DNA of 64,000 nt from Streptomyces sp. NBC_01716. GTDB lineage: Bacteria > Actinomycetota > Actinomycetes > Streptomycetales > Streptomycetaceae. Made by a program: the position numbers and the translations under genes. A model generated the notes under the pieces. The model saw only the letters and a list, made by a program, of their open reading frames with translations. It ran no database searches and was not told where the DNA came from. Within the stretch, counting starts at the first letter, position 1, and every line of letters begins with the position of its first letter. This document shows, in pieces, positions 11,195-36,551 of the stretch. Where the stretch lies: positions 558,001 to 622,000 of the forward strand of contig NZ_CP109181.1 of assembly GCF_036248275.1 (NCBI RefSeq). The letters run 5' to 3'.

Positions 11195-11213
11195 TTAGGT
11201 TAGGCTAAGCTAA
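11195..11213. promoter_or_regulatory. Iron box (DmdR/IdeR-type operator)
   Basis: TTAGGTTAGGCTAAGCTAA matches the actinobacterial iron-box consensus built from TTAGGTTAGGCT repeats. It lies 67 bases before the acetylglutamate kinase start and implies derepression under iron limitation. Confidence 0.85.
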
Positions 11214-11280
11214 TGAACGCTTGGACGGGGTCTCCCGCAGCCTGCCCCTCTACCCACCGACACCACTGGAGCCGGAGACC

Positions 11281-12171
11281 ATGACCGAACGGGCCGCGAC
11301 GACCCTGCCGGAGCACGTACAGCTCGTGAACGGTACGAGTACCGGCCTGAGCCGGGCCGGCGCCGTCGTCGTCGTCAAGTTCGGCGGCAACGCCATGGTG
11401 GACACCGAGCTGCGGCGCACATTCGCCCAGGACGTCGTGGAGTTGTGGCACGCGGGCCTGCGCCCGGTCGTCGTGCACGGCGGCGGCCCGCAGATCAGCG
11501 CGATGCTCGACCGCCTCGGCCTGGAGACGCGGTTCGAGGCGGGCCTGCGGGTGACCACGCCGGAGACCATGGATGTCGTACGCATGGTGCTGGCGGGCAG
11601 GGTCCAACGGGAGCTGGTCGGCCACATCAACGCCTGCGGGCCTCCCTTCGCCGTGGGCATGACCGGTGAGGACGCGCACACGATGGCGGCCGTACGACGG
11701 CCGGCCAGGGTGAACGGCCGGCCGGTCGACATCGGCCTCGTGGGCGACATCGTGGACGTGAACCCGGGCATGGTGCACGCCCTCCTGGAGGACGGCCATA
11801 TCCCGGTGGTCTCCCCGGTGGCCCGCGGTGAGGGCGGAGAGGTCTACAACGTCAACGCCGATCTCGCGGCCTCAGCCCTGGCCGTGGCTCTCGGCGCCGA
11901 GCGCCTGGTGATGCTCACCGACGTGGCGGGGCTGTACGAGAACTGGCCGCACAGCACCGAGGTGATCGGGCGCGTGACCGCCGACGCGCTGGACGGGATG
12001 CTGCCGGGGCTGGCGGGCGGGATGCTGCCGAAGATGGAGGGCTGCCTGCGGGCCGTCCGAGGCGGTGTGGGACGGGCCCATGTGCTGGACGGGCGTGTGC
12101 CGCACGCCGTACTGCGAGGCGTGCTCGACACGACCGGCCCCGGCACCACGGTGGTTCCCGGCACCGGCTGA
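11281..12171 (+). CDS. argB: Acetylglutamate kinase paralogue, iron-regulated, probably for siderophore ornithine
   Basis: A 296-residue amino-acid kinase: VVKFGGNAM near residue 22, [20 protein letters not shown] and [10 protein letters not shown] match ArgB, which phosphorylates N-acetylglutamate in ornithine synthesis. The start chosen is ATG 11281 after GGAG; a TTG at 11221 gives an implausible extension. Two arginine-feedback features are missing. The N-terminal ALPYI-type helix is not recognisable. In the C-terminal signature (HAxLLExFTxxGxGT in inhibited enzymes) this protein reads [15 protein letters not shown], with Gly in place of the Glu. I infer an arginine-insensitive duplicate serving coelichelin. 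The iron box upstream and the GNAT gene next door support this. Confidence 0.88.
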
Positions 12172-12226
12172 TCCCCGGCCCGCCCTGCCGAACAGGCCGA
12201 ACGAGCCGGGGAGTTGACCGTCGAGG

Positions 12227-12760
12227 TCACAGAGCCTTCGTAAGGATCCGCGCGTTACGCCGGGGGTCCAGGGACTCGGCCCACGACACAGGCGCCAGAA
12301 GCGCCGTCGTGGGCGCGAAGCCGTACCGGAGGAACAGGCCACCGCCGCCGGTCGTCGCCGTGTACAGCGCGCCCAGCGACCGGGCGCGCGCCACGGCCAG
12401 CACGGAACGCAGGAGCGCGGCCCCCACTCCGTGCCCCTGCCGCCGCCCGGCCACGCAGAAGTTGTAGAGAACGCCCACCGCTCCGCGACCGCCCTCCCCC
12501 GGACCCGCCGGGTGCACGCGCAGGCCCACGCAGCCGTCGAGCGGGCCTCCGGGGCGGCCCTGCGTCACGAGGAAGTCGGCGGCGTGGGCGGCGTAGAGCG
12601 AAGCGGGCCGTTCCCGCAACGCCCCTGATCGCACGAAGGGTTGGGACAGCGCGGCGAGAGCGGGCGCGTCCTGCGCGCGGGCGGGGCGTACGGAGGGCGT
12701 CGGCGCGAGGGGCGCGTACGGCGCGGGCGGCAGCGGGGCGGGCGGCGTAGCCGTGATCAA
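12227..12760 (-). CDS. GNAT acetyltransferase, probably stand-alone N-acetylglutamate synthase
   Basis: A 177-residue GNAT. Residues ~22-65 ([36 protein letters not shown]) and the C-terminus (LFLRYGFAPTT then NARILTKAL) align by eye with the acetyltransferase half of E. coli ArgA; the acetyl-CoA loop is RRQGHGVG. It lacks the amino-acid-kinase regulatory domain that binds arginine in long ArgA. The predicted reaction is acetyl-CoA plus glutamate to N-acetylglutamate, the substrate of the neighbouring ArgB-like kinase (convergent, 55 bases between stops). An iron box lies 71 bases upstream of its start. A different GNAT substrate is possible. Confidence 0.72.
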   Translation of the reverse strand: MITATPPAPLPPAPYAPLAPTPSVRPARAQDAPALAALSQPFVRSGALRERPASLYAAHAADFLVTQGRPGGPLDGCVGLRVHPAGPGEGGRGAVGVLYNFCVAGRRQGHGVGAALLRSVLAVARARSLGALYTATTGGGGLFLRYGFAPTTALLAPVSWAESLDPRRNARILTKAL

Positions 12761-12830
12761 GGCTTTCCTTCCTCGGTTCCACGATCGGAGAAGCGGCTTG
12801 ACGCCGTGTCACTCCGACGAACAAACGAGA

Positions 12831-12849
12831 TTAGGTTAGCCTTACCTTA
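12831..12849. promoter_or_regulatory. Iron box upstream of the GNAT gene
   Basis: TTAGGTTAGCCTTACCTTA (reverse complement TAAGGTAAGGCTAACCTAA) is a good iron box. It overlaps the last codon of the upstream amidohydrolase gene and sits 71 bases before the GNAT start. Confidence 0.82.
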
Positions 12850-14448
12850 CTTGCGAGTCCAGTTCGGGGCAGCGACGGCCGTCTTCTCCGTCGGGCTGCC
12901 GTCGACGTACGCCGCCACCACCTCGATGTCTCCGATACGGGAGGTGTCGACGCGCCGGGGGTCGTCCCCGAGCACCACCAGATCGGCGAACTTGCCCGGG
13001 GTGAGACTTCCCACGTACTCCTCCCAGTGGCAGGCGAAGGCGCCGGCGACCGTGTAGGCGTGCAGTGCCTCGGCCACGGTGATGCCCTCGTCCGGGCCGA
13101 TCAACTGCCCCGACTCGGAGGCGCGTTCGACCATGAACTGCACCGCTCGCAGCGGGGATCCGTCCGTGACGGGCCGGTCGGAGCTGCCGACGAGGGGGAT
13201 GCCGTGGTCCAGGAAGGCCCTGCCCCGGTAGAGCCACGGAGCCCGTTCCGCGCCCATGACCGCCGCGTAGTCGTCCCCGAAGTACCGGAGGAAGCCGGGC
13301 TGGACGACGGCGCTGAGCCCGAGCCGCGCGAAGCGTGGGAGCTGGTCGGGGCGGATCAGTCCCGCGTGTTCGACCCGGTGCCTGGCGCCAGGACGCGGCC
13401 GCAGGCGCTGGGCCCGCTCCAGGGCGTCCAGGGCGAGTTGGGCCGCGCGGTCGCCGATGGCGTGGACGGCGAGCTGCCAGCCGGCGAGATGCCCGTCCAC
13501 GATGGTGTCGGCGAGCACGTCCGGGTCGTCCTGCAACTGGCCGGTGTGGCCGAGTCCTTCGTACGGGTCGCCGAGCGCGGCGGTCCGGGCCATCATCCCG
13601 CCATCCGTGTAGACCTTCAGCGCGCCGAGGGAGAGCCGCCCGTCGCCGAACCCCGTGCGCAGGCCGAGGTCGAGCGCCCGGGGAATGCCGTCGGCCTCGT
13701 GCCCGGCGGCCGGACGCAGCCGCTCGGCGGCCACCATGAGCTGCACCCGCAGCGGCAACAGGCCTTCTTCGCGGGCGAGTTGGTAGGCACCCAGCTCGAC
13801 GGGACTGTGGCCGAAGAGGGTGCCGCCGATACCGGCCTCGGCGCAGGCGGTGACCCCCTCGGCCAGACAGGTCCGGCCGGCGCGCCCGATCGCCTCCGCG
13901 AGTTCCCGCTGGGTGTGGGGCGGCCGCAGGGCGCGGGCGGCGCCCATGGCGCCCTCGGCGAGGAAGCCGTTCTCGTGCGGAAGGCCGGCGGGAAGCAGCG
14001 CGAGAACGGCGGAGTTGACCACGCAGCCGTGCCCCGAGTCGTGCAGCAGGAACACCTTGTGCCCGAGGCTGACCATGTCCAGTTCGGCGGCGGTCAGATG
14101 ACGGCCGAGAGCCCGCTGGTCGTAGCCCGCGACGCTCACCCAGGCGCCCGGTGAGCGCTCCCGGGCGACGGCCCCGGCCACGACGGCGAGCACGTCGTCG
14201 ATCCGGGTGAGGCCCGCGACGCTCGGGGTGTTCTCCTTCAGCCCCGCCCAGGCCAGATGGACATGGGCGTCGATGAACCCGGGCAGCACGGTGGCGCCCT
14301 GAAGGTCGATCACCTCACGCGCGGGCAGCGAGGTCACGGCCTCGTCCAGACCCACGATCCGGCCCCGCCAGATGCCCAGGTCATGGGCGACGGGGTGGTC
14401 CGGATCCATGGTGAGGAAGCGCGCGTTCGTCAGTCTGGCGCAGAGCAT
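12847..14448 (-). CDS. YtcJ-type metal-dependent amidohydrolase
   Basis: A 533-residue amidohydrolase_3 family protein. The N-terminal small beta domain (NARFLTMDPD) leads to FIDAHVHLAW, whose HxH binds metal. GYDQRALGR, VHAIGDRAAQLALDA and RVEHAGLI supply further barrel ligands, with SSDRPV near the C-terminus. No signal peptide is seen, so it is cytoplasmic. Such enzymes hydrolyse amide, formamide or carbamate bonds; the substrate cannot be named. The gene starts 24 bases after the mbtH stop and has no iron box of its own, so it is probably co-transcribed with mbtH from the iron box at 14727. A role in deacylating or recycling siderophore intermediates is possible. Confidence 0.85.
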   Translation of the reverse strand: MLCARLTNARFLTMDPDHPVAHDLGIWRGRIVGLDEAVTSLPAREVIDLQGATVLPGFIDAHVHLAWAGLKENTPSVAGLTRIDDVLAVVAGAVARERSPGAWVSVAGYDQRALGRHLTAAELDMVSLGHKVFLLHDSGHGCVVNSAVLALLPAGLPHENGFLAEGAMGAARALRPPHTQRELAEAIGRAGRTCLAEGVTACAEAGIGGTLFGHSPVELGAYQLAREEGLLPLRVQLMVAAERLRPAAGHEADGIPRALDLGLRTGFGDGRLSLGALKVYTDGGMMARTAALGDPYEGLGHTGQLQDDPDVLADTIVDGHLAGWQLAVHAIGDRAAQLALDALERAQRLRPRPGARHRVEHAGLIRPDQLPRFARLGLSAVVQPGFLRYFGDDYAAVMGAERAPWLYRGRAFLDHGIPLVGSSDRPVTDGSPLRAVQFMVERASESGQLIGPDEGITVAEALHAYTVAGAFACHWEEYVGSLTPGKFADLVVLGDDPRRVDTSRIGDIEVVAAYVDGSPTEKTAVAAPNWTRK

Positions 14449-14726: not shown

Positions 14727-14745
14727 TTAGGTTAGGCTCGCCTAA
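14727..14745. promoter_or_regulatory. Iron box between mbtH and cchJ
   Basis: TTAGGTTAGGCTCGCCTAA is the best consensus match in the window, between divergent mbtH and esterase genes. A further half-site (AGCCTAACG) follows at 14755-14763, nearer cchJ. Confidence 0.9.
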
Positions 14746-14793: not shown

Positions 14794-15891
14794 ATGCGCC
14801 TCGCGGCCGACGAGGACAACGCCTTCGCCGCTTTCGGACTGCCCGGCGAACCGGGCACGGACGAGTTCTGGGCGGCGGCGCGGACGCCCGTCTCGGTGCC
14901 CGCCGACGACGGCGGCTGGCTGGCCCTGTTCCTGTGGCGCGGATCTCCCGCGAGCGTCGTCTTCGAGAGCTGGTCGGATCCCGTTCCCCTGCGCAGATGG
15001 CGCGGGACGGACTGCTGGTACGCCGAGGTGCCCATGCCCGCGCGGCTGCGGGTGACCTACCAACTCCTCGCGGGAGACGCCGCGTTCGCCGATCCGTTCA
15101 ACCCGGACGGCGCCGGCGGTGACCGGTCCGTGGCGGCGGCCCCGGACAGCCCTCCTCAGCCCCACTGGCCGGCCATCGGCACCGACGACGTCCTGCCCCT
15201 CCCCCGTACCCGCGTCCGCTGGAGCAGCGAACGGCTCGGCGGACGGCGCACCGTACGGGTCCACCCGGCGGGCGGCGGCGGGCCGGTGGTCCTCCTGCTC
15301 GACGGGGACGACTGGCTGTATCTGCACCCGGCCATGGCCGCGTTCGACTCGGCCGTCGCCAGTGGCGAGATGCCTCCCGCCACCCTGGTCTTCCTGCCGG
15401 CCAAGGACAGAGAGGCCGAGTTCGGGTGCCGGCCGGAGCTGTGGGAGGCCGTACGGGACGAACTGCTGCCGCTGGTGGCGGAGACCGGCGTACCCGCCGA
15501 CCTCGACCGGCTGGTGGTCGCCGGACAGAGCCTCGGCGGGCTCAGCGCGCTGTACGCGGCGCTGGAGTTCCCGGACCTGGTCTCCCGGGTCGCCTGCCAG
15601 TCGGGGTCGTTCTGGTGGACGCCCGAGGCCATGGCTCAGGCGGACCCCTTGGGCGGGCCGGTCGGCGGCACACTCGCGGAGCGCCTGCGGGAGCTCCCCG
15701 ACCTGTCCGGGCTGCGGTGCGCGTTCGACGTGGGGGAACACGAGACGGCGATGCTGCCCCACTGCGCGGTGACCGAGACCCTGGCCGAAGAGGCCGGTGC
15801 GACCGTGCGCGTCTCCCGGTCGCCGTCGGGCCACGACCGGGTGGGCTGGCGGCACGCCCTGGTCAGGGATGTCGCCTGGGCGCTCGGCTGA
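14794..15891 (+). CDS. cchJ: Siderophore esterase (Fes/IroE-like), CchJ
   Basis: A 365-residue alpha/beta-hydrolase of the enterochelin-esterase type. An N-terminal ~130-residue beta domain (FWAAARTPV, LFLWRGSPASVVFESWSDPV) precedes the hydrolase domain with VVLLLDGDDWLY, the nucleophile elbow GQSLGG (Ser) and SPSGHDRVGWRHAL (His). In the coelichelin pathway CchJ is thought to release or hydrolyse the NRPS-bound peptide or the ferric siderophore; CchH has no thioesterase domain. The start is ATG 14794 after AAGGAG, downstream of an iron box. The gene is followed by a repeat element and then the convergent cchI. Confidence 0.93.
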   Translation: MRLAADEDNAFAAFGLPGEPGTDEFWAAARTPVSVPADDGGWLALFLWRGSPASVVFESWSDPVPLRRWRGTDCWYAEVPMPARLRVTYQLLAGDAAFADPFNPDGAGGDRSVAAAPDSPPQPHWPAIGTDDVLPLPRTRVRWSSERLGGRRTVRVHPAGGGGPVVLLLDGDDWLYLHPAMAAFDSAVASGEMPPATLVFLPAKDREAEFGCRPELWEAVRDELLPLVAETGVPADLDRLVVAGQSLGGLSALYAALEFPDLVSRVACQSGSFWWTPEAMAQADPLGGPVGGTLAERLRELPDLSGLRCAFDVGEHETAMLPHCAVTETLAEEAGATVRVSRSPSGHDRVGWRHALVRDVAWALG

Positions 15892-16139: not shown

Positions 16140-17855
16140 TCACCGCGCCACGGCCAGGCAGTACTCCTCGTCCGTGGCGAGCAGGTTCCGGTGCGTGTCC
16201 TCGGCCGTGATGGCGCCGTCATCCAGGACGAGGACACGGTCGGCGGCGTCCAGCAGCGCCGGACTGCTGGTGAGCACGACGGTCGTACGGCCCCGCCGCA
16301 GCTTCGCGATGTTGCGCGCGATGAGCTGCTCGGTGACCGCGTCGACCGCCGTCGTCGGATCGTGCAGGACCAGCACGTCGCTGTCGGTGGCCAACGCGCG
16401 GGCCAGGGACAGCCGTTGGCGCTGTCCCCCGGAGAGGTTCGCGCCCCGGTCGCGGACGCCGTAGTCCAGCCCGTCGCGGTGCAGTGCCACCACATCGGTC
16501 AGCATGGACGCCTCGACGGCCTCGGGCACCATCGGGCTGGTGCCCGAGGGATCGATGTTCGTGCGGAGGGTACCCGCGAAGATCTCCGCGTCGTACGGGT
16601 TCACCAGCAGGTGCTCGCGGACCGCCTCGACCGACAGGTCCGTGATGGCCTGCCCACCGACCCGTACCGTGCCCTCGTACGCGTCCGGGGGGACGTTGAC
16701 CGCGAGGACCGACGCGAGATCGGCGGCGGCGCGCGGCTGGTAGACGGCGATCGCCACGAACTCGCCCGCCGGCACCTGGAACTTCAGCTGACGCAGGCTC
16801 CCGTACCGCACGCAGTCGATCTCCAGGTCCCCGCCCGGGGCGGGACGCTCCGCCCCCGGGGTCGTCACCGGCGGCGCGGACAGCACCAGCGCCATGCGCT
16901 CGGCCGACGCGCGCGCCATCATCACGTACTTCGGCATCTCCGAGAAGAGTTTGAGCGGTTCGATGATGAACTGCGCGAGGCCCACGGCCATGACGAGCTC
17001 CCCGATGCTGATCCGGCCGCCGAACGCCAGCCAGCCGGCCGTCAGGGTCACCGCGGCGGCGAGGACCGCGTTGAGCGCCAGCGCGGTGCCCGCGTAGGCG
17101 CCGTTCACCCTGGCGACGGTGATCGCCTGGCGCTTCGCGTCCGAGCTGACCTCGCGGTACGAGAGGAACGCCGCGTGGTTGCCGCCGAAGCCGTGCAGCG
17201 GGCGCAGGCCGGTGATCAGGTCGGCGACCTTCGCGCCCGCCCGCGCCACCCTGGCCTGCTGCTCCCGCGTACTGGCGCCGATCCGCCGTGACATCACGGC
17301 CAGGATCGACAGGATCGCGACGGTCCCCGCGATCACCAGCAGACCGAGCCGGATGTCGGCCATACCCAGCGCGACCGCCGCGACGACCACCGCGACCAGC
17401 GAGCTGATCAGCAGCGGCACCACCTCGACGATGTCGGCGGTCTGGTCGGCGTCCTCGGTGGCGATGGTCAGCACCTCGCCGGACTTCAGGTCGACGTCCC
17501 TGGCCACCGGCTGGAGTCCGCACTCCGCCACCCGCACCCGCCAGCGGTGCGCCTCCGTCGTGTTGGCCTTCTGCAGGGTGCGCATGCCGAACCGCCACGA
17601 CAGCGACACGGTCGTGATGATCACGGCCAGCGCGGCGATCGACAGACCGAGCGCCCGGGGGCTCCGGTCCTGCATGGTGTGCTCGACGATCAGGCCGAGC
17701 GCGATGGGAAAGGCCGTCTCCCCCGCCTGGTACAGGCCCATGAGGACCGTGCCGCGGGTCATCGCGCCGACGTTGCGGCGCAGCGCGGTCCGCAGGATGC
17801 CGGCCCCGGGGCGGGGCCGCTGGGTGTCAGATGTTTTCGTCAAGGTGGCGGGCAA
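16140..17855 (-). CDS. cchI: ABC exporter half-transporter with degenerate nucleotide site, CchI
   Basis: A 571-residue half-transporter: an N-terminal six-helix membrane domain (~residues 25-320) and a C-terminal ATPase domain. The ATPase keeps the signature [15 protein letters not shown] (near residue 474). It has lost the Walker A loop ([11 protein letters not shown] instead of GxxGxGKS/T, near 370), the Walker B acid pair (VLVLHDP) and the switch His (LTSSP). It should pair with CchG, which shows the opposite defects, to export coelichelin. The start ATG 17855 overlaps the end of cchH by 29 bases, implying translational coupling; a later TTG is possible. Confidence 0.93.
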
Positions 17856-20800
17856 TCGCTTCCGGGGTTCGCAGGGTCAGCAGATCACGGATGGTGACCA
17901 CAGGTCCGTACTCGCGGCGGAGCAGCCCGATCAGCCGCACCGCCAGCATGGAGTGCCCGCCGAGGGACACGAAGTCGCTCACCGCGCTCACCTCGTCGTC
18001 GTCCAGGTCCAGGGCCTCGGCGAAGAACTCGCACACCGTGGTCTCGGTCTCCGTCTCCGGGCCGCGCTCGCCCGCCGTGGTCAGCGCGCCGAGCGGCTTG
18101 GCCTCCGGCAACGCCTTCGTGTCAGCCTTCCCGTTCACCGTCAGCGGGATGCCGTCGACCTGGGCGTAATGCGTCGGACGCAGGAAGTCCGGCATCGCGG
18201 ATCCCACTTCGGCGGCGACCTCCGCCAAGTCCGAGCCGTCCAGCACGAGATACGCGGCCAGCCGGTACGCGCCGTCGACCTGCGGGTCGGGCTGGGCGAC
18301 CGCGGCGGCGAACCGTACGGCCCGGTGCGCCGCGAACGCGGCCTCGACCTCGCCCAGTTCGACCCGGTGGCCCCGGATCTTGACCTGCTGGTCGGTACGG
18401 CCGAGATACGTCAGGTTCCCGTCGGGCCGCCGGAGAACCAGGTCGCCGGTGCGGTACATGCGCTCGCCCGGTTCGCCGAACGGGCAGGCGACGAAACGGT
18501 GGGCCGTCTGGGCGGGCTGCCCGAGGTAGCCGCGCGCGATGCCGATGCCCGACACGTACAGCTCACCGGGGACTCCGTCCGGCAGGGGCCGCAGCCACGG
18601 GTCCAGTACGTACACCTCGGTGTTGTCGATCGCCACGCCCACCACCGGGTCCTGGCATTCGAAGGTGCCGACGCCGAGGGTGTTGATGGTGTACTCGGTG
18701 GGTCCGTACAGGTTGTAGCCGGCCGTGCCGTCGGTCGCGGCGAGCCGCTGCCAGAGCGTGGGCGTGACCGCCTCGCCGCCGAGCAGCACCAGCGCCGGCC
18801 GCCGTTCGGGGTTGTCGAGCAGCCCCTCGGCCACCAACTGCTGGGCGTAGGTGGGCGTCACGTTGATGACGTCGATCCCGTGCGCGAGGCAGTACTCGAC
18901 GAGACGGGGCGCGTCACGGCGCAACTCCTCGTCGCAGATGTGCACTTCGTGGCCGTCGGCGAGCCAGAGCAGTTCCTCCCACGACATGTCGAACGCGAAC
19001 GACACGGTGTGGGCGATCCGGAAGGTCCGGTGGCCGTGCTCCGCGAGGACGGGCTCGAAGATACGGCGCTGATGGTTGATCAGCATGTTGGTGAGCCCGG
19101 CGTATTCGGTGACCACGCCCTTGGGCTTGCCGGTCGATCCCGAGGTGTAGATCGTGTACGCGGGGTGCCGCAGCCGGTCCGGGTCGTCCGGGGCGAACGT
19201 CGTGTACGGCTCCGCCTCCGGGAGGGGCCGGTCCAGTTCGATCAGGTCGCCGGTAAGCCGGGGGGACACGGTGCTCACGGTGAGCGTCACGTCGGGGCGG
19301 GCGTCCGCGACGATCGCGGCGATCCGCTCGTCCGGGTGGTCCAGCTCCAGGGGAACGTACGCCGCGCCGACACGCAGCACGGCGAAGAGCGCCACGATCG
19401 AGTCGAGCGAGCGCGGAACCGCGAGAGCCACGGTCGTCTCGGGGCCGATGCCCCGCCCGGCGAGCACGCCCGCCACCGCGCGGCTGCGGTCCCGGAGCCC
19501 CGCGAACGTCATGGTGGAGCCGTCGGCTACGAGCGCGACCCGCTCGGGATCACGGTCCGCCGCCTGGTCGAACCGGTCCATGACAGTGTCCGTGCCGACG
19601 TCCGTGCGCTCGCCCCGCGAGGGCTCCTGTCCCACCCCCCGCAGAACGCCCACCGGCCCTGCCGACCGGGCCAGGTCGTCGAGCACGCGCAGGTAGTCGT
19701 CCAGGAGGCGACGGGCGTTCCCGGTGTCGCCGTCGCGGTGCTCCAGCTTGACCGTGAGCCGGTCGCCGGGGGTGACGACCCAGGTGAACGGGTAGTGCGT
19801 GGAGTCGTCGGCCTTGACCGATTCGATGCCGTGCCTGGCGTTCATCTCGGCGAAGGCGTCCATGTCCAGGAAGTTCTGGAGCACGAACAGATTGTCGAAC
19901 AGGGTGTCGTGCCCGCTGGCGCGCTGGATCTCGCCGAGTCCCAGATGCTCGTGCTCCATCGCCTCGACCCTGGCCGTCTGTACGGCCGTCAGGTAGTCGC
20001 CGACGGAGTCGTCGGGCCGTGGGCGCGTCCACATCGGCACGGTGTTGAGGAGCACACCGACGATGCCGGACAGATCCTCACCCTCGCGGCCGGAGACGGT
20101 CACACCGAACACGGCGTCGCTCCGGCCGGTGTGCGCGCCGAGGAGAAGGCCGAAGGCGCCGGTGAGCACCGAGTTGAGGGTGACGCCGTGCGTCTTGGCC
20201 GCTTCCCGCAGCCGGTCGGACAGTTCGGCCGGGAGCGTGTGCGTGAGCGCGTCCGGCAGGTCGTCCGGGAGGGTCGGCGCCACTCCGGCGAGCAGGGTCG
20301 GGCCGGGGAGGCCGGCCAGGTGCTCCGCCCAGAAGCGTTCCGATACGGCGGCGTCCTTGGCGTCGAGCGTCCGCGCGTACTCCTCGAAGCTCGGCGTGGC
20401 CGGGGTCGCGTCGAGTGGCTCGCCCGCGACGACGGCCTCGTAGGCGTCGAACAGGTCCCGCAGCAGGATCTCGCGGGACCAGCCGTCCCACAGCAGCAGG
20501 TGGTAGCTCAGCAGCAGGCCGTTCCGGTCGTCGGGCAGCCGCACCACGGTCAGCCGGATCAGAGGCGGCTCGCCGGGGTCGAATCCGGTGTCCCGGTCCC
20601 TGTCGCGCAGTTCCTCGATCTCCGCGTCCGTGGACAGCCTGACGGTGCGGACGCCGACCCGACGGCCCGCCTTGAGGACCTGGACCGGATTTCCGTCGTC
20701 GTCGGTGGTGAAGCCGGCGCCCACGACCGGGTGCCGCGCGATCACGTACGCCATGGCATCGGCCAGCGCGTCGGTGTCCAGTCGCCGGTCGAAGGTGAAG

Positions 20801-23800
20801 TAGCTCTGGGCGACATAGTGTCCGGCCGTGCCCGCCATCTGGGCCTGGAAGAACAGGCCCCGTTGGAGGGGGGTGACCGGCGCCGTGCGCTCGGCCGTCG
20901 CGGCGGCGTCGGCGATCTGCTCCAGCGCGCTGCGCCAGTGCTCGGTGATCGCGTCGGGGATGCCGTCGGCGAGGGTGAAGGCCGCGTGCAGGGAGCCGGT
21001 GGTGTCGTCGGTCCAGGCGTTGACCTCGACGGCGTACGGGCTGCCCTGATCGCCTGCGGTGAGACGCAGAGCCGCCGACTCGCTGCCCCGGCCGAGGTAG
21101 TTGAACAGCACCTGCGGGCGGGCGGTCAGCAGCGGCGCCGTCTGCGGGTTGAGATACCGGAGTTGGCCGTACGCCACGTGTCCGCGCTCGTCCGGCTGGC
21201 GTTCGGCGACCTCGCGTGCCGCCGCGACCGGGTCGGTGTGCGCCGTGAGCCGTACGGGCGCGATGGAGGTGAACCAGCCGACCGTACGGCTGTAGTCGTG
21301 GTGGTCGAGGGCGGGGACCCGGCCGTGTCGTTCGAGTTCGATAGCGAGATCGGTGGGCGTCGGCTGGATGTGTGTCAGCGCGGTGCGCAGGGCGCCGCAC
21401 AGCAGCTCGGTGAGACCCAGGCCGAGAGCGGACGGCGCGCTACGTGTCACGAGGTCGCTCACGCCGGGCGCGAGGACGACGGTGGTCTCGCGCGGGCGCC
21501 CGACCGCCGGCAGCAGCCGGGGGGCGTCGAGCGTGCTGATCCAGTGCCCGAGTCCGTCGATCGCCTGGACCGACCGCGAGGCCAGCGCTTCGGCGTACTC
21601 GGCGTACGACGTGGTCGGCGCGGGCAGTTCCTCGCCGCTCATGGCGGTGGCCAGGTCGTCGAGGAGGACCAGCCAGGACACCGAGTCGACGGCGGTGTGG
21701 TGGATGGTGACGACCAGGGTGCGGCTCGCCTCCAGCCATGCGAACGCGATGACGTCACCGGTCTCGGGGTCGAGCCGTCCGGCGGCTTCGTTGGCCGCGG
21801 CCGTCGCGTCGGTGGTGTCCGCGCGGACGACGGTGACCTCGCGGGCGGGTTCGGTGCGCGGCGCCCACACTCCGTGCTCGACGCGCAGCCGCAGCCGGAG
21901 TACGGGGTGTGCGGCGACGACGGCGTTCGCGGCGCGCCGCGCGTCGGCGAAGCCGGTGCCCTCAGCCGCGACCAGGGTCCTGGCCTGGGCGAACCGGTCG
22001 AGCGAGCCGCCCAGTTCGCGCTGGCGCAGGAGGATCGGCGTCGGTGTGAACGGGCCGTCCTCCTGGCGGGCGGGCGCGGGCGTCTCGGCCCTCGGCGCGC
22101 GCGCGGCCAGGTGTTCGGCGAGGGCGCGCGGTGTCCGGAAGAGGAACACGTCGCGGGGGGCGATCGGCAGGCCGAGTGCCCTGGCCCGGTTGATGACGGT
22201 GATGGCGACGATGCTGTCGCCCCCGGCCATGAAGAAGTCGGTGTCCGCGTGGACGGCGGTGCCGGGGAGTGTTTCGGCGAAGATGCCGACCAGGGCGGCG
22301 AGCGCGGAATCGGCCGTGGCCAGGGAGGTGCCGTCCTCGGCGGCGGCTTCGGCCGGGGGCGGCTGCGACTCCGCCTGTGCGGCGCTCTCGGCCAGGGCCT
22401 TGCGGTCCAGCTTGCCGTTGACCGTCAGCGGCAGGGCGTCGACCGGCAGCACCCGGCCGGGCACCATGTGCGCGGGCAGTTTCGTGGCCAGCAGACCGGC
22501 GGCATCGCCGGGCACCCGGCCCACGACGTGCGCGACAAGGTGGTCGCCGCTCTCCGCGACGGTGACGGCCACATCGACCACGCCGTCCAATTCCCTTACG
22601 GCGGACTCCACTTCACCCAGCTCGATACGGAAGCCCTTGAGCTGCACCTGGTCATCGGCACGGCCGGTGAACTCCAGCTCGCCGTCGAGCGTGCGGCGGG
22701 CGAGGTCACCCGTGTGGTACATCCGGGAGCCGTCGTCGGCGAAGGGGTTCGCGACGAACCGGCCCGCGGTGAGTCCGGGCCTGCCCAGATAGCCGAGGGA
22801 CACCTGGTCGCCGGCGACGTAGATGGCGCCCACCCGGCCCGGCGGCACCGGCCGCAGCCGGTCGTCCAGCAGATGGGTGACCAGCCCGGGAATCGGGCCG
22901 CCGATCGGGCTGACGTCGCCGCCGGGGCCGAAGTCCTCGTCGGTCAGCACCCGGTGGGTGACATGGACGGTGGTCTCGGTGATGCCGTACATGTTGACCA
23001 GCTCCGGCGAGCCGGTGCCGTGCCGTTCGACCCAGCCGCGCAGCCGGCCGGGATCCAGTGCCTCACCTCCGAAGATGATCCGGCGCAGGGCGGTGACCGG
23101 TTCACCGGCGTGCCGGTCGGCCTCGATGAACTGGTAGAACGCCGACGGGGTCTGGTTGAGCACGGTCACCCCGCGCTCGCGCACCAGCCGGTGGAAGTCG
23201 ACCGGGGAGCGCGTCAGCCCGTACTCCGGCACCAGCAGTTCGGCGCCGTGCGCCAGGGCGCCCCACAGCTCCCAGACCGCGAAGTCGAAGGAGAAGGAGT
23301 GGAACTGCACCCACACGTCGTGGGGGCCGAAGTCCATGTCGGGCTGTGTGTTCGCGAGCAGCGACACCACACTGCGGTGCGGGACGACAACTCCCTTGGG
23401 CCTGCCGGTCGATCCGGACGTGTAGATCACGTACGCGGGGTCGTGCCAGTCGATCTGAGGCTCGGCGGTCCCGGCCGGGCCGGTCGGCCCTTCGTCGCCC
23501 TGGACGAGTACGCGGGCGGGCACGCCCGCCCGGGAGAGCAGCCGGGTGAAGCGGTCCCGCTGTTCGCGGTCGACGAGCACGACCTGCGGGGCGGCGTCGG
23601 CGAGGATGTACTCCAGCCGTTCGTCCGGGTACGCCATGTCGAGCGGCACGTACGCGCCGCCCGCGGTGACGACCGCGACCAGTGCGACGACCTGTTCGAC
23701 GGAACGCGGGACGGCGACGGCGACCCGCTTGCCGGGTCCGACCCCGGCCGTACGCAGGACGGACGCCAACTCGTCCTTGGCGGCTGCCAGTTCGCCGTAG

Positions 23801-26800
23801 GTCAGGGACCGCGTACCCCCGTCGATGGCGCACTGGGTGACGGCGGTGGCGGCCGGGTCGCGGTCCGCGGCGGCGTCGAACAGCCCGCCGAGGGTGGCCG
23901 GGGTGATCGGCGCGGGGAGCCGGACGGTCCCTGGCGGCAGGTCGGCGACCAGGGAGTCGGGCCGGGTGAGCAGGCCGGTGAGGGTCCGGGTGAACGTACG
24001 CAGGATCGCCTGGGCGCCGGCCTCCCGCAGCAGTTCGCCGTCATAGATCAGGTTGAAGCGCGGGCGCCCTTCGCCCGTGCGCTCCACGACCAGGGTCAAC
24101 GGGTAGTGCGGGGCACCCTCGTTGACGATGGCGGCGATGCCCAGCCCGTCGCCGGGCCCGCGCAGCGCGGCCACGTCGGTCGCGACGTCGAACACGACGA
24201 GGGTGTCGAACAGGGCGCCGACACCGGTCTGTCGGCCGATCCTCGCGAGCGACACGTGCTGGTGGGGCAGTACGGCGCTCTGGTGCTCCCGGACGGCGGC
24301 GAGCAGATCGCGCCCCGTGTCGCCGGCCGCCCAACGGGCGCGGACGGGGATCGTGTTGATGAACAGTCCGACCATGTCCCCGATGCCGGGCACGTCCGCG
24401 TCGCGCCCGGACACCGTGGAGCCGAACACGACGTCCTTGCTCCGCAGGATGCCGCCCAGCGTCAGCGCCCAGGCGCTGTGCACGGCCACGCTCAGGGGTA
24501 CGCCGGCCGACCGGACGGCCGCGTCGATGCCTTCCCCGGGCTCGTGCGCCGTGTCCGCGAACCGGTCGGACGGGGTGTGCCCCTCGGCGACGAGGGACGG
24601 GCCCGGCAGCTGGGCGAGTTCCTCGCGCCACACCCGGTCGCTCTCGTCCTCGTCACGGTCGGCGAGCCAGCTCAGATAGTCCGGGAAGCCGCCGAGCGGG
24701 TACACGGTGCCCGGCGCGTCGTACTCGGCCAGCAGCGCGCGGAGCATCGGCGGCACCGACCAGCCGTCGGCGATGATGTGGTGCACCGTCTGCACGAGGA
24801 TGTTCCGGCCCGCGCCGGCGCGGATGAGCGTGTAGCGCATCAGCGGCCCTGCGGCCAGGTCGAATCCGGCGACGCGGTCCCGCTCGGCGTGGTCGCGGAT
24901 CTCGTCCTCGGTGATGCCGGGGCGCTCCAGCGTGGTGAAGGGCGCTTCCACGCCGCTGTCCAGGACGGAGACCACGCGGCCGTCGGCGAGCGCGGTGAAC
25001 CGGGCTGCCAGGTTGGGGTAGAGGGTGAGCAGCCGGGTGGCCGCCGCCGCGAGCCGGTCGGCGTCCACCTCGCCGTCCAGCGTGAGGAGTTGCTGCTCGA
25101 CGTAGCTGCCCGTCGAGTCGTCGTCGAAGACCGAGTGGAAGTACAGGCCTTCCTGCAACGGGGTCAGCGGCAGGATGTCCCGCAGCGCCGGGCCGTCGAA
25201 GGCGTCGACATCCGCCTGGGTGAGCCGCACCAGAGGGAAGTCGCTGGGTGAGTGGCCGCCCTGGTCGAGTGCGGCCAGCCCGGTCAGGGCACTTCGGAAG
25301 TACTCACCGAGGGTCGTGATGTCCTCGTCGGTGAACATTCCGTCGGGCCAGGACACGGTGGTGACCAGCTCGTACGCGCCGCTGGAGGCCGGTTCGTTGA
25401 TCGCGTTGAACTCCAGGGCGCGCGGCAGGCGCATCCTCGGGTCGCGCTTCTCACCCAACTGCCCGGTGGTTCCTGCGAGTTGCCAGTCTCCGGAGGCTCC
25501 GGCGTCGAAGCGGCCCAGATAGTTGAAGAGCACCTGTGGCGCCGGCGCGTCGAACTCCGACCGGGTCAGATACCGCAGGGCGCCGTAGGAGACGCCGTTG
25601 TCGGGTACGCGGGCGAGGTCTTCCTTGACCGCCTTGAGCGCGGCTGCCAGATACCCGGGCGCGGTGAAGTCGTCCGCCGTACCGGGGTCGACGGTCACCG
25701 GGAAGAGCGTGGTGAACCAGCCGACGGTGCGGGACAGTTCGGGCTCGAAGCCCGCGGAGCCCGCGACGAACCGTCCCTCGCGGCCGTGGCCTTCGAGTTC
25801 GATGTGCGCGTGAGTCTGGTCCTGCCCGAGATCGCGGCGCCACCGGGCGAGGGCGACGGCGAGGGCGGTCAACAGGACGTCGTTGACGCCCGCGTGGAAC
25901 TTCGCCGGAATCTCCCCCAGCAGCGCGGCCGTGACCTCGGGTCCGGCCGAGACCGTCCTCGTACGCTCCCGGGCGACGGTGTCGTCCGCGGAGAGCTCGC
26001 GCCTGCCGAGCGGTCCGTCCGCGCCCGGCAGGGGACGCCGGAAGTAGGAGCTGTCCGCGTCGAACGCGGCGCGCTCCAGCAACTGCGTCCAGCGCCGGAA
26101 CGAGGTGCCCACCGGGGGCAGTTGGACCGGCACGCCCGAGGCGAACTGACGCCAGCCGGTGGCGAGGTCGTCCATCAGGATCCGCCAGGACACACCGTCG
26201 ACCACCACATGATGGACGGCGACGACCAGTTGCCGTGCCTCACGGCGCCAGACCGCGCGCAGCATCACGCCGTTGTCCGGGGCGAGCCCGTCGGTGGCGA
26301 GCGCCACGCACTCGTCCAACGAGAGGCCGCTCTCCTGCCATCCCGTGGGGTTCTCCTCGGCCGCCCGCGGAATGTCCGCCCGCGGAATGTCGAAGCTCCA
26401 GCGGTCGCCACGTACCAGTTCCGCGCGCAGCATGTCGTGACGTGCCACGACGGCGGCGAGGATCGTGTCGAGCGCTTCCGGGGTGAGGTCGGCCGGTGTG
26501 TTGAGCACCACGGACTGTACGAAACCGTCGATCGCGTCCGTCGTCTCGCCGAGCCACTGCACGACGGGTGATCCCACGACGGGACCGGTGGAGACGTCGC
26601 GGCGGTCCACGGTGGTGACGTCCTCACGGCTCGCCACCGCCGCCAGTGCCCGTACGTTGCTGTTGGCGAAGATCTGCCGGGCCGTGACGTAGAGACCCGC
26701 CTCGCGCAGCGCGCTCAGCAGCGAGATCGCCAGAATGCTGTCTCCGCCGAGCTGGAAGAAGTCCTGGTTGACTCCGACCTCGTCCAGCCGCAGCAGCTTC

Positions 26801-28809
26801 GCGACCGCCTCGCACACCACGCGCTCGTCCTCGGTGGCGGGCGGGAGGAGCGAGCCGGTCCCGATCACGGGCTCGGGCAGCGCGTTCCGGTCGAGCTTGC
26901 CGTTCGCGGTGAGCGGGAACTCCCTCATGACGACGGTGTGGGCGGGCACCATGTACTCGACCATGTGCTCGGTGGCCCACGCCTTGACCTGCTCCGCCCG
27001 CAGATCCTCGCTCCCTGCGGCCGGGATGACGTATCCGACCAGATAGGTGCCGCCCGCCGCGTTCTTCTTCGCGATCACGCAGGTGTGGCGTACGGCGGGG
27101 TGTTCCGCGAGGCCGGCCTCGACGTCCTCGATCTCCAGCCGCATGCCGCGGATCTTGATCTGGTTGTCGGCCCGGCCGAGGAAGTCCAGGGAGCCGTCGG
27201 GGGCGTACCGGGCGAGGTCGCCGGTGCGGTACAGCCGGGACCCGTCGGCGGCGAACGGGTTGGCCACGAACCGGGACGCCGTCAGGCCAGGCGCGTTGAC
27301 GTACCCGCGCCCCAGGAGGAAGCCGCCCGCGTACAGTTCGCCGCCGACCCCGACGGGGACCGGGCGCAGTTCGTCGTCCAGCACGTACAACTGGGTGTTG
27401 GGGTTGGCCTTGCCGATCGACGTCGACAGGCGTTCCGCCGCGCCCCGGTAGATGACGTGCGAGACACCGATGGTCGTCTCGGCCGGGCCGTAGCCGTGGT
27501 ACAGCGGGATGTCGAGCTTGGTGCGGAACCGCTCGTACAGCTCCGGGGTCAGTACCTCGCCGCCGCACCACACATGGCGCAGGCTGTCGAGGCGCCCGGA
27601 GTCGCCGGCCATCTCCAGCAGGACGTCCAGCATGGACGACACCAGGTAGGTGAAGGTGACACGCTGCTCGGCGATCACGCTCAGCAGCTGGTGCGGGTCG
27701 CGTTCGCCGCCGGGGCGCAGGACGACGAGCCGGCCGCCGGATACGAGGGGCAGGAAGATCTCGTTGATGGAGATGTCGAAGGACAACGGGGCCTTGAACA
27801 GCGACGCGTCGTCGTGGCCGAAGCCGAGGATCTCGTTGACCTGCCAGAGCAGGCGCTCGCTGATCGCCTCGTGCCGGATCATCGCGCCCTTGGGGCGGCC
27901 GGTCGAACCGGAGGTGAAGATCACATACGCCAGGGCCGCGCCGGAGACGGACATCCCGGTGCCCTCGGTGGGAAAGGAGCCGAACTTCCAGGCGTCGAGA
28001 TCGACGGCCTCGGCGTCCGGTTCTCCCGCACCGGGCTCGCCCGAGGAGTTGAGTTGCAGGACGACCCGGGCGTCCTCCACGACGACGGCTCGGCGCGCGG
28101 CGGGCCACTGCGGATCGAGCGGTACGAACGCGCAGCCCGCCTGGAGCACGGCGAGAAGCCCGATCACCATCTCGGCGGAGCGGCCGAGCGAGATGCCGAC
28201 GACCTGTTCGGCGGTGAGCCCGCGTTCGATCAGACGGTGGGCCAACTGGCTTGAGAGCTCGGCAGTCTGACGGTAGGTCAGAGAGCGGTTGTCGTCCACG
28301 ACGGCGACGGCGTCCGGCCTCGTACGCGCCTGCTCGCGGAACATCTCCACGACGGTCGGGCGGTGCCGGTCGGCCGCGGTGTCGTTCCACCCGGTCAGGG
28401 CCCGGATCCGCTCGGCCGCACCGGACGGGGCGATGGTGCCGAGGGGCCGGTCGGGGAAGTCGGCGAGGTCGTCCAGGGCGACTTGCGCGTCGGGCGGCGT
28501 GACGCCGTCGGGGACGGTGATGGTCCAGGCGCCCGCGCCGTCCGTGCCGGTCTTCCAATCGCCCGGCGCGGCACCGCCGTTGGCGATCCAGCCGAGGACG
28601 TCGGCGAAGAGTGTGCCGGGGGCGAGGTCCAGGCCGTCGGGGCTCCGGCCCGTCGCCCAGTACGACAGGCCGACGGCGCACGCTTCCGCGATGGTCCGGT
28701 CGGAGTGGTCGCCGGCCCGTCGGCGTACATCGGCCAGAGCTGTGGCGGAGAGCAGTACGAGACGAGCGCTCGGTTCCATCATCGAAGACTCAGCATCCCT
28801 TCCAGACAT
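17827..28809 (-). CDS. cchH: Coelichelin non-ribosomal peptide synthetase, CchH
   Basis: A 3660-residue NRPS, the length expected for CchH. Domain order: an N-terminal remnant (~1-120), A1, T1 (Ser691), E1 (HHVVVDG at 866), C (HHIIADG at 1343), A2, T2 (Ser2199), E2 (HHTAVDS at 2370), C (motif near 2770), A3, T3 (Ser3620). Pocket residues read DINYWGGIG (A1), DFWNIGMVH (A2) and DMENLGLIN (A3), matching N5-formyl-hydroxyornithine, Thr and N5-hydroxyornithine. Three modules make a tetrapeptide, so module 1 must be used twice. There is no thioesterase. ATG 28809 lacks a ribosome site; ATG 28782 or 28779, after GGAAGGG, may be the true start. The last C domain has Leu at the catalytic His position. 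Confidence 0.97.
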
Positions 28810-28853: not shown

Positions 28854-30644
28854 CTAGCTACCTTCCCGCCACGCCCGCCACAGTCGTGCGTACCGGCCTC
28901 CGAGGGCCACCAGTTCATGGTGGGTCCCCCGCTCGACCACGCGCCCCGCGTCCAGCACGGCGATGCGGTCCGCCGCCATCGCCTGGGTCAGCCGGTGTGC
29001 GACGAACAGCGTGGTCCGGCCCGAACAGGCGGCCAGCACCGCCCGTTCCAGCTCGGCCGCGCCCTCACTGCCCGCCTCCGCGGTCGACTCGTCGAGGACC
29101 ACGACCGGCGACCGGCTCAACACCAGCCGGGCCAGGGCGATCTGGGCGACCTTGGTGACGTCCAGGCGTTCGCCGCCCTCGCCGACCAGGGTGTTCAGCC
29201 CGTCGGGCAGCCCCTCGACCCATTCGCCCGCGCCGACTGTCCGCAAAGCGTCGGCGAGTTGGGCGTCGGTCGCCTCGGGCGCGGCGAGCCGCAGGTCGTC
29301 GGCGAGCGGACCGGAGAACACATGCGTCTCCTGGGTCAGGATGCTCACCAGGGCGCGCGAGCCCGCCTCGTCCAGTGCCGCGAGATCGTGCGGCCCGATC
29401 CGTACCGATCCGGCCTGCGGGGTCCCGATGCCGGCGATCAGGGCGGCCAGGGTGGACTTGCCCGCGCCGGTCGCCCCCACCAGGGCGAGCGAACCGCCCG
29501 CCGGAATCGTCAGGCTGACGTCCCGCAGGACCGGCTCGTCGGTGTCGGGATAACTGAACGTCAGCCCCTCCACCGTCACCGGATACGGCACGGACTCCGC
29601 CGCCGGGGCGACGGAACCGTCGCCGACCAGCCGGTCCTCGGTGTCCTCCCCCAGCACGCCGACCAGACGGGTCAGGCTCGCGCCCGACTTCTGCGCCTCG
29701 TCGAAGGTGAACATGATGGCGCCCAGCGGGGTGAAGAGCCGGTGGAACATCAGGGGGGCCGCCGACACCTCGCCCAGAGTCGCGGCGTCGGCCTCCAGCA
29801 GGGCGTACCCCACCACAAGGATCAGGACGAGCCCGATGAACTCCGCGCGGTTCTCCCTGCCGACGAAACGGCCGAAGAACCGGAACACCTCGATACCGAG
29901 ATCGCGCACCCGCCACGACTCCCGGGTCACCGTCTCGCGGACGGATTCCTCCAGGCGGTACGCCCGTACGGTGTCTATGCCGTTCAGTCCGCTGATCAGC
30001 GCCTGCGCGCGATCGGCCTGGGCGACGCGCTGTTCGCGGTAGAGGGGGGCGGACCTCGGGAGATACCAGCGCAGGGCGAGCGCGTACGCGGGCAGGGCGC
30101 CGGCGCCCGCGAGGCCGAGCCGCCAGTCCAGCCCGAACATCCCCACGGTGGCGATGAAGACCAGCACACCCGCCGAGAACACGGTGGGGATGGCCGTCCG
30201 GATGCCCTTGGACAGCACGGCCACGTCGTCGCCGACGCGGGACAACACATCGCCCCGGCCGACCTGTTCGATCCGTGCGCTGGGCATTCCCAGTACGGCC
30301 CGGACCGCGTGTTCCCGCAGCCGTGCGAGCAGATCCGCGCCGAGGCGCCCGATCAGATAGGTCGATGCGGCGGTGGCCGCCGCCCCGAGCAGCGCGGCGG
30401 CCCCCAGCAGGACCGTGACCGTGACCAGGACCGAGCGCGAGTCGCCCGCGACCACTCCGTCGACCACCCGGCCCAGCAGAAGCACCGGGAGTACCTGGAG
30501 CGCCGCGCCGGCCACCGTGGTGAGCACGGTGGCCAGCGTCAGCCATGGCGTCTCGCGGCAGTGCGCCACGACCCACCGGGTGGCCTCGCCTCCGCTCGCC
30601 GTACGCAGTGCCGCCGGAGCGGCGCGGGTGCCGGCCGCGCTCAC
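28854..30644 (-). CDS. cchG: ABC exporter half-transporter with intact Walker motifs, CchG
   Basis: A 596-residue half-transporter with a six-helix membrane domain (~35-330) and an ATPase domain. Walker A GATGAGKST (near 389), the Q-loop ILTQETHVF, Walker B VVVLDES (near 515) and the switch FVAHR are intact. The ABC signature, normally LSGGQ, is LDVTK (494-498). CchI carries the intact signature, so the two halves together form one complete ATP site. GTG 30644 overlaps the stop of a 21-codon frame (GTGA). There is no iron box directly upstream, so it is probably transcribed from the cchF promoter. Confidence 0.93.
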   Translation of the reverse strand: MSAAGTRAAPAALRTASGGEATRWVVAHCRETPWLTLATVLTTVAGAALQVLPVLLLGRVVDGVVAGDSRSVLVTVTVLLGAAALLGAAATAASTYLIGRLGADLLARLREHAVRAVLGMPSARIEQVGRGDVLSRVGDDVAVLSKGIRTAIPTVFSAGVLVFIATVGMFGLDWRLGLAGAGALPAYALALRWYLPRSAPLYREQRVAQADRAQALISGLNGIDTVRAYRLEESVRETVTRESWRVRDLGIEVFRFFGRFVGRENRAEFIGLVLILVVGYALLEADAATLGEVSAAPLMFHRLFTPLGAIMFTFDEAQKSGASLTRLVGVLGEDTEDRLVGDGSVAPAAESVPYPVTVEGLTFSYPDTDEPVLRDVSLTIPAGGSLALVGATGAGKSTLAALIAGIGTPQAGSVRIGPHDLAALDEAGSRALVSILTQETHVFSGPLADDLRLAAPEATDAQLADALRTVGAGEWVEGLPDGLNTLVGEGGERLDVTKVAQIALARLVLSRSPVVVLDESTAEAGSEGAAELERAVLAACSGRTTLFVAHRLTQAMAADRIAVLDAGRVVERGTHHELVALGGRYARLWRAWREGS

Positions 30645-31772: not shown

Positions 31773-31842
31773 CCGGAATCCCTTGCCTTCGTGCTACCGG
31801 CACCCTTGTCTTAGGGCAGCCAAACCTTATCCTGCGCGAGTG

Positions 31843-31862
31843 AGGTTAGCCTAGCCTAACCT
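31843..31862. promoter_or_regulatory. Iron box upstream of cchF
   Basis: AGGTTAGCCTAGCCTAACCT is a near-palindromic iron box, 71 bases before the cchF start and between cchE and cchF. A weaker AT-rich stretch (TTAGGGCAGCCAAACCTTAT) follows toward the gene. Confidence 0.82.
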
Positions 31863-36433: not shown

Positions 36434-36532
36434 GTCACTCCCATTCATACGGGGGAAGCCGCCCTGTCAGGCGTGGGGGTACGTGAGACAGACAGAAGGT
36501 GGGCACGCCGACGAAGCGATCCCACCCTGAAC

Positions 36533-36551
36533 TTAGGTGAGCCTAAGCTAA
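36533..36551. promoter_or_regulatory. Iron box upstream of cchB
   Basis: TTAGGTGAGCCTAAGCTAA is a strong iron-box match in the cchB/cchA divergent region, on the cchB side. Confidence 0.87.

Follow-up and report, generated by a model that had tools for sequence, protein, structure and literature searches.

A second N-acetylglutamate kinase gene lacking the arginine-site glutamate, paired with an iron-boxed NAGS-like GNAT gene beside a coelichelin-type cluster in Streptomyces

A second N-acetylglutamate kinase gene (argB2) and a gene for a short GNAT acetyltransferase resembling N-acetylglutamate synthase (NAGS) lie beside a coelichelin-type siderophore cluster, and each is preceded by an iron box. 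The kinase lacks both sequence features of arginine-sensitive N-acetylglutamate kinases (NAGKs), the N-helix core and the arginine-site glutamate. The pair probably opens ornithine synthesis under iron control to supply hydroxamate siderophores. The window, defined here as the whole 64-kb stretch of DNA that was analysed, corresponds to C1:558001-622000 of a complete 8.67-Mb genome. A first-pass annotation had described an ArgB-like kinase and a GNAT as convergent, with iron boxes at 11195 and 12831, and the genes and boxes are present as claimed.

The second kinase and its arginine site

The kinase ORF (11281-12171, forward strand) encodes 296 amino acids. It scores 225.7 bits against the curated TIGR00761 argB model, for which the cut-off is 151.3, and its best solved relatives are the acetylglutamate kinases 7nlf (1.6e-85) and 2ap9 (3e-85). 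By family assignment it is an acetylglutamate kinase, and the argCJBD synteny of its relatives supports action on N-acetylglutamate. The structure predicted for the kinase alone has a mean pLDDT of 34, and no conclusion rests on it.

The possibility that the window holds the only argB of the genome is excluded by an argC-argJ-argB-argD operon at C1:7193044 to about 7197503. The argC, argJ, and argD of this housekeeping operon pass curated models, and there is one ArgJ in the whole genome. A housekeeping short NAGS is located at C1:3671183 (283 bits). The housekeeping and argB2 kinases share 62% identity; the housekeeping one contains IEALPWLTRHNGK as its N-helix stretch and LLEIFTDEGIGT at the C-terminus.

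Seventy-five kinases were compared, made up of the window kinase, 68 from named loci, and six further copies; the partial sequences of L083, L089, L122, L141, and L150 were excluded. Lys33, Gly35, Gly36, His66, Arg90, Asn190, Asn192, Asp194, and Lys251, which we take to be substrate or catalytic residues, are invariant in all 75. Asp214 is present in 74 of them. Asn37, within the GGNAM stretch, is variable and is retained in 62 of 75. Eight kinase pairs and six GNAT pairs give dN/dS values of 0.10-0.37 (NG86) and 0.03-0.13 (YN00). L083, L089, L141, and L150 carry broken or partial copies of the kinase. In L083 (S. himastatinicus, G180) two stop codons interrupt the kinase, and matches to the GNAT, the amidohydrolase, and the cch genes persist.

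In the kinase tree, argB2 forms one clade (support 99/98) that contains the window kinase. The only row of another label inside this clade is L196, a further copy of L114. Of the 30 housekeeping rows, 12 entered the tree, for which the bootstrap was not yet stable and a long-branch warning applies.

Sensitive NAGKs bind arginine between the N-helix and the C-lobe, according to the available text of PMC3329491. All 30 housekeeping copies have the arginine-site Glu, within an LLEIF stretch, and none of the 75 clade kinases does. It is replaced by Gly in 56, Ser in 13, Ala in three, and Asp, Arg, and Cys in one each. The window kinase has Gly280 at this position (codon at 12118-12120, forward strand). 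The Gly that follows the Glu is retained in 27 of 75 clade kinases versus 30 of 30 housekeeping copies.

The N-helix core (LP[WY]-type) was sought with the same pattern in both groups and is found in 14 of 75 clade kinases versus 30 of 30 housekeeping copies; by this pattern it is absent from the window kinase. A laxer pattern raises the clade count to 22 of 75 (30 of 30 housekeeping), and the eight extra sequences read LPWP or VPWP. In L107, L118, L127, L136, and L144, only seven residues (MEEDSGP or MEEESGP) separate a stop codon from strand 1, so no N-helix is possible. The room for a helix is likewise too short in L029, L031, and L035. A missing N-helix and a Gly in place of the C-terminal arginine-site Glu had been noted in the first-pass annotation; both are borne out, and they apply across the clade.

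Substitutions in the C. glutamicum NAGK, namely H271N and E284D, and also E19R, H26E, R209A, H268N, and G287D, are tabulated under arginine deregulation in the portion of PMC10464499 that was available. By our own mapping, which uses the 13-residue His-Glu spacing, E284 of that enzyme would correspond to Gly280 here. H268 was considered as an arginine-site marker and dropped, since Arg occupies that position in 30 of 30 Streptomyces housekeeping NAGKs. The arginine sensitivity of the housekeeping enzyme is therefore an assumption.

Among 21 further kinases, 14 could be read for arginine-site motifs and seven had no findable motif. The sister kinases L207 (G087) and L208 (G208), approximately 65% identical, also carry Gly in place of the Glu and have no N-helix core. 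Each is encoded about 2 kb away from a gene for an ornithine hydroxylase that is approximately 60% identical to CchB. The kinases of L205 and L211 have the N-helix core, and Gln replaces the arginine-site Glu, perhaps an independent change to that site. L211 is near a hydroxylase that is approximately 51% identical to CchB and perhaps of the piperazate type. L211 and L212 are the two kinases near hydroxylases of about 50% identity to CchB; the N-helix core is present in both, with Gln in the former and Glu in the latter.

The GNAT and the iron boxes

The GNAT ORF (12227-12760, reverse strand) starts with TTG, encodes 177 amino acids, and lies tail to tail with the kinase. As a single sequence it scores 31.1 bits (1.1e-7) against PRK05279, with a cut-off of 344, and 20.4 bits against PRK07922, with a cut-off of 180. 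A profile of 18 members ranks NAGS in its first four matches. The best is the N. gonorrhoeae NAGS (3.9e-12), followed by two M. tuberculosis ArgA sequences and the amino-acid acetyltransferase 3e0k; the fourth match is at 1.1e-5 and the fifth is close behind at 2.8e-5. The predicted model has a pLDDT of 88.9, and its first seven Foldseek rows are NAGS. In VIA-align the first five rows are NAGS, with Z of 21.8-18.6 and rmsd of 1.8-4.6 over 135-165 residues, and the next row has Z of 17.3. Arg51 is invariant across the 18 sequences and presumably aligns with a basic residue of the substrate site in N. gonorrhoeae NAGS. Resemblance to NAGS also seems to extend to the C-terminal stretch (majority RRNARIL).

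By profile and predicted fold the GNAT is NAGS-like. It is filed here under that name and not as an ArgA member because the curated ArgA cut-offs were missed. Profile and fold suggest that it has NAGS activity.

The first-pass annotation called the ornithine supply apparently feedback-free and noted that the GNAT has no kinase-fold domain. The short form is confirmed. Freedom from arginine does not follow from it, since the M. tuberculosis ArgA (Rv2747), which is also short and has no kinase domain, was crystallised with L-arginine, according to the title of entry 5yo2. A missing kinase-fold domain therefore does not make a NAGS arginine-free.

GNAT loci were collected with the profile, and 80 of 114 relatives were kept by two peptide patterns; all 80 are named Streptomyces. 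A kinase match (five of them partial) is present in the same 20-kb stretch in 73 of the 80, and the two genes are convergent in 73 of 73. Six loci (L076, L093, L094, L104, L115, and L152) have no kinase beside the GNAT. A seventh, L126, cannot be judged because its sequence ends 0.1 kb past the GNAT.

These data bear on a different reading, in which the kinase is a dedicated NAGK and the GNAT acylates another substrate, for example hydroxyornithine or another siderophore intermediate. Single-sequence NAGS scores far under the cut-offs would fit it, as would the functional diversity of GNATs and the loci (all of the six except L152) that keep the GNAT and the cch genes without the kinase. It is set against the ranking of NAGS above other GNATs by both profile and fold, the invariant Arg51 and the NAGS-like C-terminal stretch, and the strict pairing with argB2, which in some loci extends to argCJBD. 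We regard another substrate as unlikely, and an N-acetylglutamate-forming GNAT is the preferred reading.

Five boxes of the DmdR1/IdeR type are present in the window. The box at 11195-11213 (forward strand) is approximately 70 bp upstream of the kinase start and has 1 mismatch. The box at 12831-12849 (reverse strand) is upstream of the GNAT, has 2 mismatches, and overlaps the amidohydrolase stop codon. Mismatches were counted against the 19-base consensus on the better strand. The remaining boxes are between the amidohydrolase and cchJ (14727-14745, forward strand), within the cch genes (31841-31859, reverse strand), and between cchB and cchA (36533-36551, strand not assigned). A 19-bp box upstream, as in a DmdR1/IdeR regulon, is thus found for both the kinase and the GNAT. 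A consensus scan for promoters and terminators between 11100 and 12950 found none.

No match to the 19-base consensus occurred in 100 shuffles. The pattern TTAGGTTAGGCTAANCTAA, with up to 2 mismatches, occurs at nine distinct places in the 8.67-Mb genome, five of them in the siderophore locus, and the reversed-pattern control has 0 matches in the whole genome. Of the nine, only the kinase box matches TTAGGTTAGGCTAANCTAA without a mismatch, the N of the pattern having been placed at that box's one departure from the palindrome. Boxes matching at least 15 of 19 positions precede the GNAT or the kinase in 63 of 73 loci (GNAT 36, kinase 36, both 9, neither 10). In eight of the 10 loci without a direct box, a box is present 0.7-2.7 kb ahead of the kinase gene. 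For comparison, 40 of 800 random 330-bp segments from the same set of loci contained a match of 15 of 19, a count that includes true boxes of other genes. An iron response of the kinase and the GNAT is what these boxes predict.

Neighbourhood, distribution, and origin

The genes to the right of the pair begin with an Amidohydro_3 hydrolase (12847-14448, reverse strand), a cchJ-like esterase (14794-15891, forward strand), a cchI-like ABC exporter (16140-17855, reverse strand), and a cchH-like NRPS with three adenylation domains (17827-28809, reverse strand). They continue on the reverse strand with a cchG-like ABC exporter (28854-30644), a cchE-like ABC ATPase (31952-32818), two FecCD permeases (32853-34019 and 33992-35068), and a cchB-like ornithine N5-monooxygenase (35093-36448), the proposed ornithine consumer. 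A cchA-like formyltransferase (36684-37631) follows on the forward strand. With a three-module NRPS, an ornithine hydroxylase, a formyltransferase, and uptake and export genes, the cluster is by gene content of the coelichelin type. The kinase and the GNAT are second copies linked to a consumer of ornithine, which is the pattern of a dedicated ornithine-supply set.

The amidohydrolase is a neighbour in 47 of the 80 GNAT loci, often just upstream of the GNAT and in the same direction; the esterase is found in 51 and the NRPS in 55 (five only 28-33% identical). Solved relatives of the amidohydrolase at 1e-10 are two uncharacterised hydrolases only. The Amidohydro_3 family includes N-substituted formamide deformylases, and it is conceivable that this enzyme acts on the formyl-hydroxyornithine of the siderophore.

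The survey covered 246 genomes of the genus. Identity floors were 71% for the kinase and 78% and 55% for the hydroxylase, with lower rows excluded; kinase and hydroxylase counts are among the matches listed, and weaker ones may be missing. At least 50 of the 246 genomes have the second kinase at 71% identity or more (broken in G180), and 51 have a GNAT relative, two of them weak (G039 at 49% and G054 at 39%). Kinase and GNAT occur together in 45 genomes among the matches listed, and the GNAT is within 10 kb of the kinase in 41 of the 50 kinase genomes. An ornithine hydroxylase is within 35 kb of the kinase in 45 of the 50, among the matches listed, and 35 of these are coelichelin-type. In four of the other five (the broken-up assemblies G099, G229, and G030, and also G072), the hydroxylase is on a different contig from the kinase. 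The orphan second-clade kinase L155 (G143) has neither a GNAT nor an ornithine hydroxylase at the thresholds used.

Among the matches listed, 73 genomes have a coelichelin-type hydroxylase; the kinase is present in 41, the GNAT in 42, and neither in 27. Fisher tests on such counts take no account of kinship, and no weight is placed on them. The set is therefore dispensable. The first-pass annotation had assigned the pair to the coelichelin system and proposed co-occurrence with cch loci as a check. The linkage to ornithine-hydroxamate siderophore genes stands, and the assignment needs widening, as the same clade also occurs beside other ornithine-hydroxylase clusters. A set specific to coelichelin was accordingly rejected.

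The pair might instead raise the arginine pool, or ornithine in general, under iron limitation. No sequence feature channels the product to CchB and the route would be finished by housekeeping enzymes, both of which suit a general pool. The hydroxylase close to the kinase in nine tenths of the kinase genomes (again among the matches listed) argues for a siderophore feed, and a gene kept for arginine supply would hardly be expected to lose its arginine site. A general pool is considered improbable, more so than another GNAT substrate, and supply to the siderophore is preferred.

The argC, argJ, and argD genes were sought in the kinase loci with the housekeeping ArgC, ArgJ, and ArgD as probes. 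All three are beside argB2 in 14 of 75 loci, and in one of these, L148, each passes its curated model. In six of the 75, argJ is present and argD absent; two, L086 and L147, retain argC along with a broken argJ; and in 53 the stretch read contains no argC, argJ, or argD. L077, L086, L087, L108, L123, and L147 hold remnants of argC or argJ. On the tree, 8 changes are required to account for where argJ is present. For a possible association between loss of argJ and loss of the N-helix, approximately 2.8 of seven independent pairs on the tree went the same way and 0.5 opposite ways. Matches to an isochorismatase-domain gene (PF00857) occur in 25 of the 80 GNAT loci, four of them short (example, L148:14994-15650). 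In the loci inspected this gene sits between the iron box and the arg genes; none was seen in the window.

The window itself carries an argJ-tail scar at 11316-11333 (forward strand), an exact 18-base match to the junction between argJ and argB2 in L080. The scar is read out of frame, inside the N-terminus of the kinase. Its 12-base core, the argJ-end motif TACAGCTC[AG]TGA, has one copy in the 64-kb window, at 11318. The nearest relative, L074, also carries the scar. We infer that the window kinase lost the upstream argJ together with its old start and N-helix, and that translation now begins at a start acquired at 11281. The two genes resemble what would be left of an iron-boxed argCJBD ornithine operon after reduction. 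The ArgC, ArgJ, and ArgD steps must be supplied from elsewhere in the genome.

That the kinase is a decaying duplicate, its arginine site and N-helix lost through functionless degeneration, is very improbable: the broken or partial copies and the repeated loss of argC, argJ, and argD would agree with decay, and they are outweighed by nine catalytic positions invariant in 75 of 75 kinases, dN/dS well under 1, a near-perfect iron box, and conserved pairing with the GNAT.

Proposed mechanism and comparison with known systems

In the proposed iron-switched entry to ornithine synthesis, a DmdR1-type repressor would leave the kinase, GNAT, and cch boxes together when iron falls. The GNAT would make N-acetylglutamate and the kinase would phosphorylate it; housekeeping ArgC, ArgD, and ArgJ would complete ornithine, and CchB would hydroxylate it. 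Without the arginine-site Glu and the N-helix, the kinase should no longer be stopped by arginine, and ornithine could therefore be made with arginine plentiful. Arginine insensitivity of the kinase is predicted from sequence, and a flow of ornithine to CchB is expected from the arrangement. The first-pass annotation had proposed that the pair bypasses arginine control to feed CchB. The second Glu-less NAGK, the NAGS-like GNAT, the boxes, the linkage, and the constraint agree with this; the arginine freedom of the GNAT is the part that does not carry over.

Two points weaken the proposal. The housekeeping ArgC, ArgJ, and ArgD operon may be repressed by arginine, and in a pathway with ArgJ recycling NAGS only replenishes acetyl groups (anaplerotic).

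In the wider history suggested by the loci, an argC-argJ-argB2-argD operon would have been set among siderophore genes, and the other steps would have been lost several times. The steps retained would be the two where arginine normally acts. We lean towards the view, with less assurance than for the pair itself, that these clusters recruited the whole operon, placed it under iron control, removed the feedback on the kinase, and pared it repeatedly; iron starvation would then override arginine control via two genes.

If true, a primary pathway is opened for a siderophore without releasing its normal control, with transcription set by iron and flux by a kinase without an arginine site. The clade would offer a natural series of NAGKs that lack this site and could serve ornithine and arginine production, and the pair could mark ornithine-hydroxamate clusters. 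Whether precursor supply limits siderophore synthesis would become testable through two genes.

Parts of this arrangement are already known, as far as the available text of the two sources goes: ornithine genes in piperazate NRPS clusters (PMC9866976) and iron-tuned desferrioxamine precursors (PMC12161575). A search of the open-access literature, which includes few papers from subscription journals, found no description of hydroxamate siderophore clusters accompanied by an iron-boxed, Glu-less kinase and a NAGS-like partner.

The window shares with the S. coelicolor cch cluster the NRPS, exporters, uptake genes, hydroxylase, formyltransferase, and iron boxes, as described in the available portions of PMC9854754 and PMC12161575. 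It differs in that the regulon section of the latter, compared by text, names no argB or NAGS; the terms argB, ornithine, acetylglutamate, and arginine have no occurrence in the available text of PMC12161575. The arginine-sensitive hexameric NAGKs of P. aeruginosa and T. maritima share family and catalytic residues with the kinase here (PMC3329491 and PMC10464499, available text), which differs from them in having neither the N-helix core nor the arginine-site Glu.

Among iron-controlled systems the closest parallel is desJGH, iron-regulated genes that shift desferrioxamine precursors in the account given in the available text of PMC12161575. Like desJGH, the pair would tune siderophore precursors under iron control, with different enzymes and for a different siderophore.

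Among ornithine sets, argJ, argB, argC, and argD are found inside the NRPS clusters of lunaemycin (lun11-14), stenothricin (StenJ-M), and himastatin (HmtB), as reported in the available part of PMC9866976. Like the window, these ornithine-consuming clusters have a dedicated second NAGK and ornithine genes. Their sets feed piperazate-containing peptides, and that part of the source names no iron boxes. The set described here, unlike these, adjoins siderophore genes, is iron-boxed, and includes a NAGS-like GNAT; in most cases only the kinase and the GNAT remain of it.
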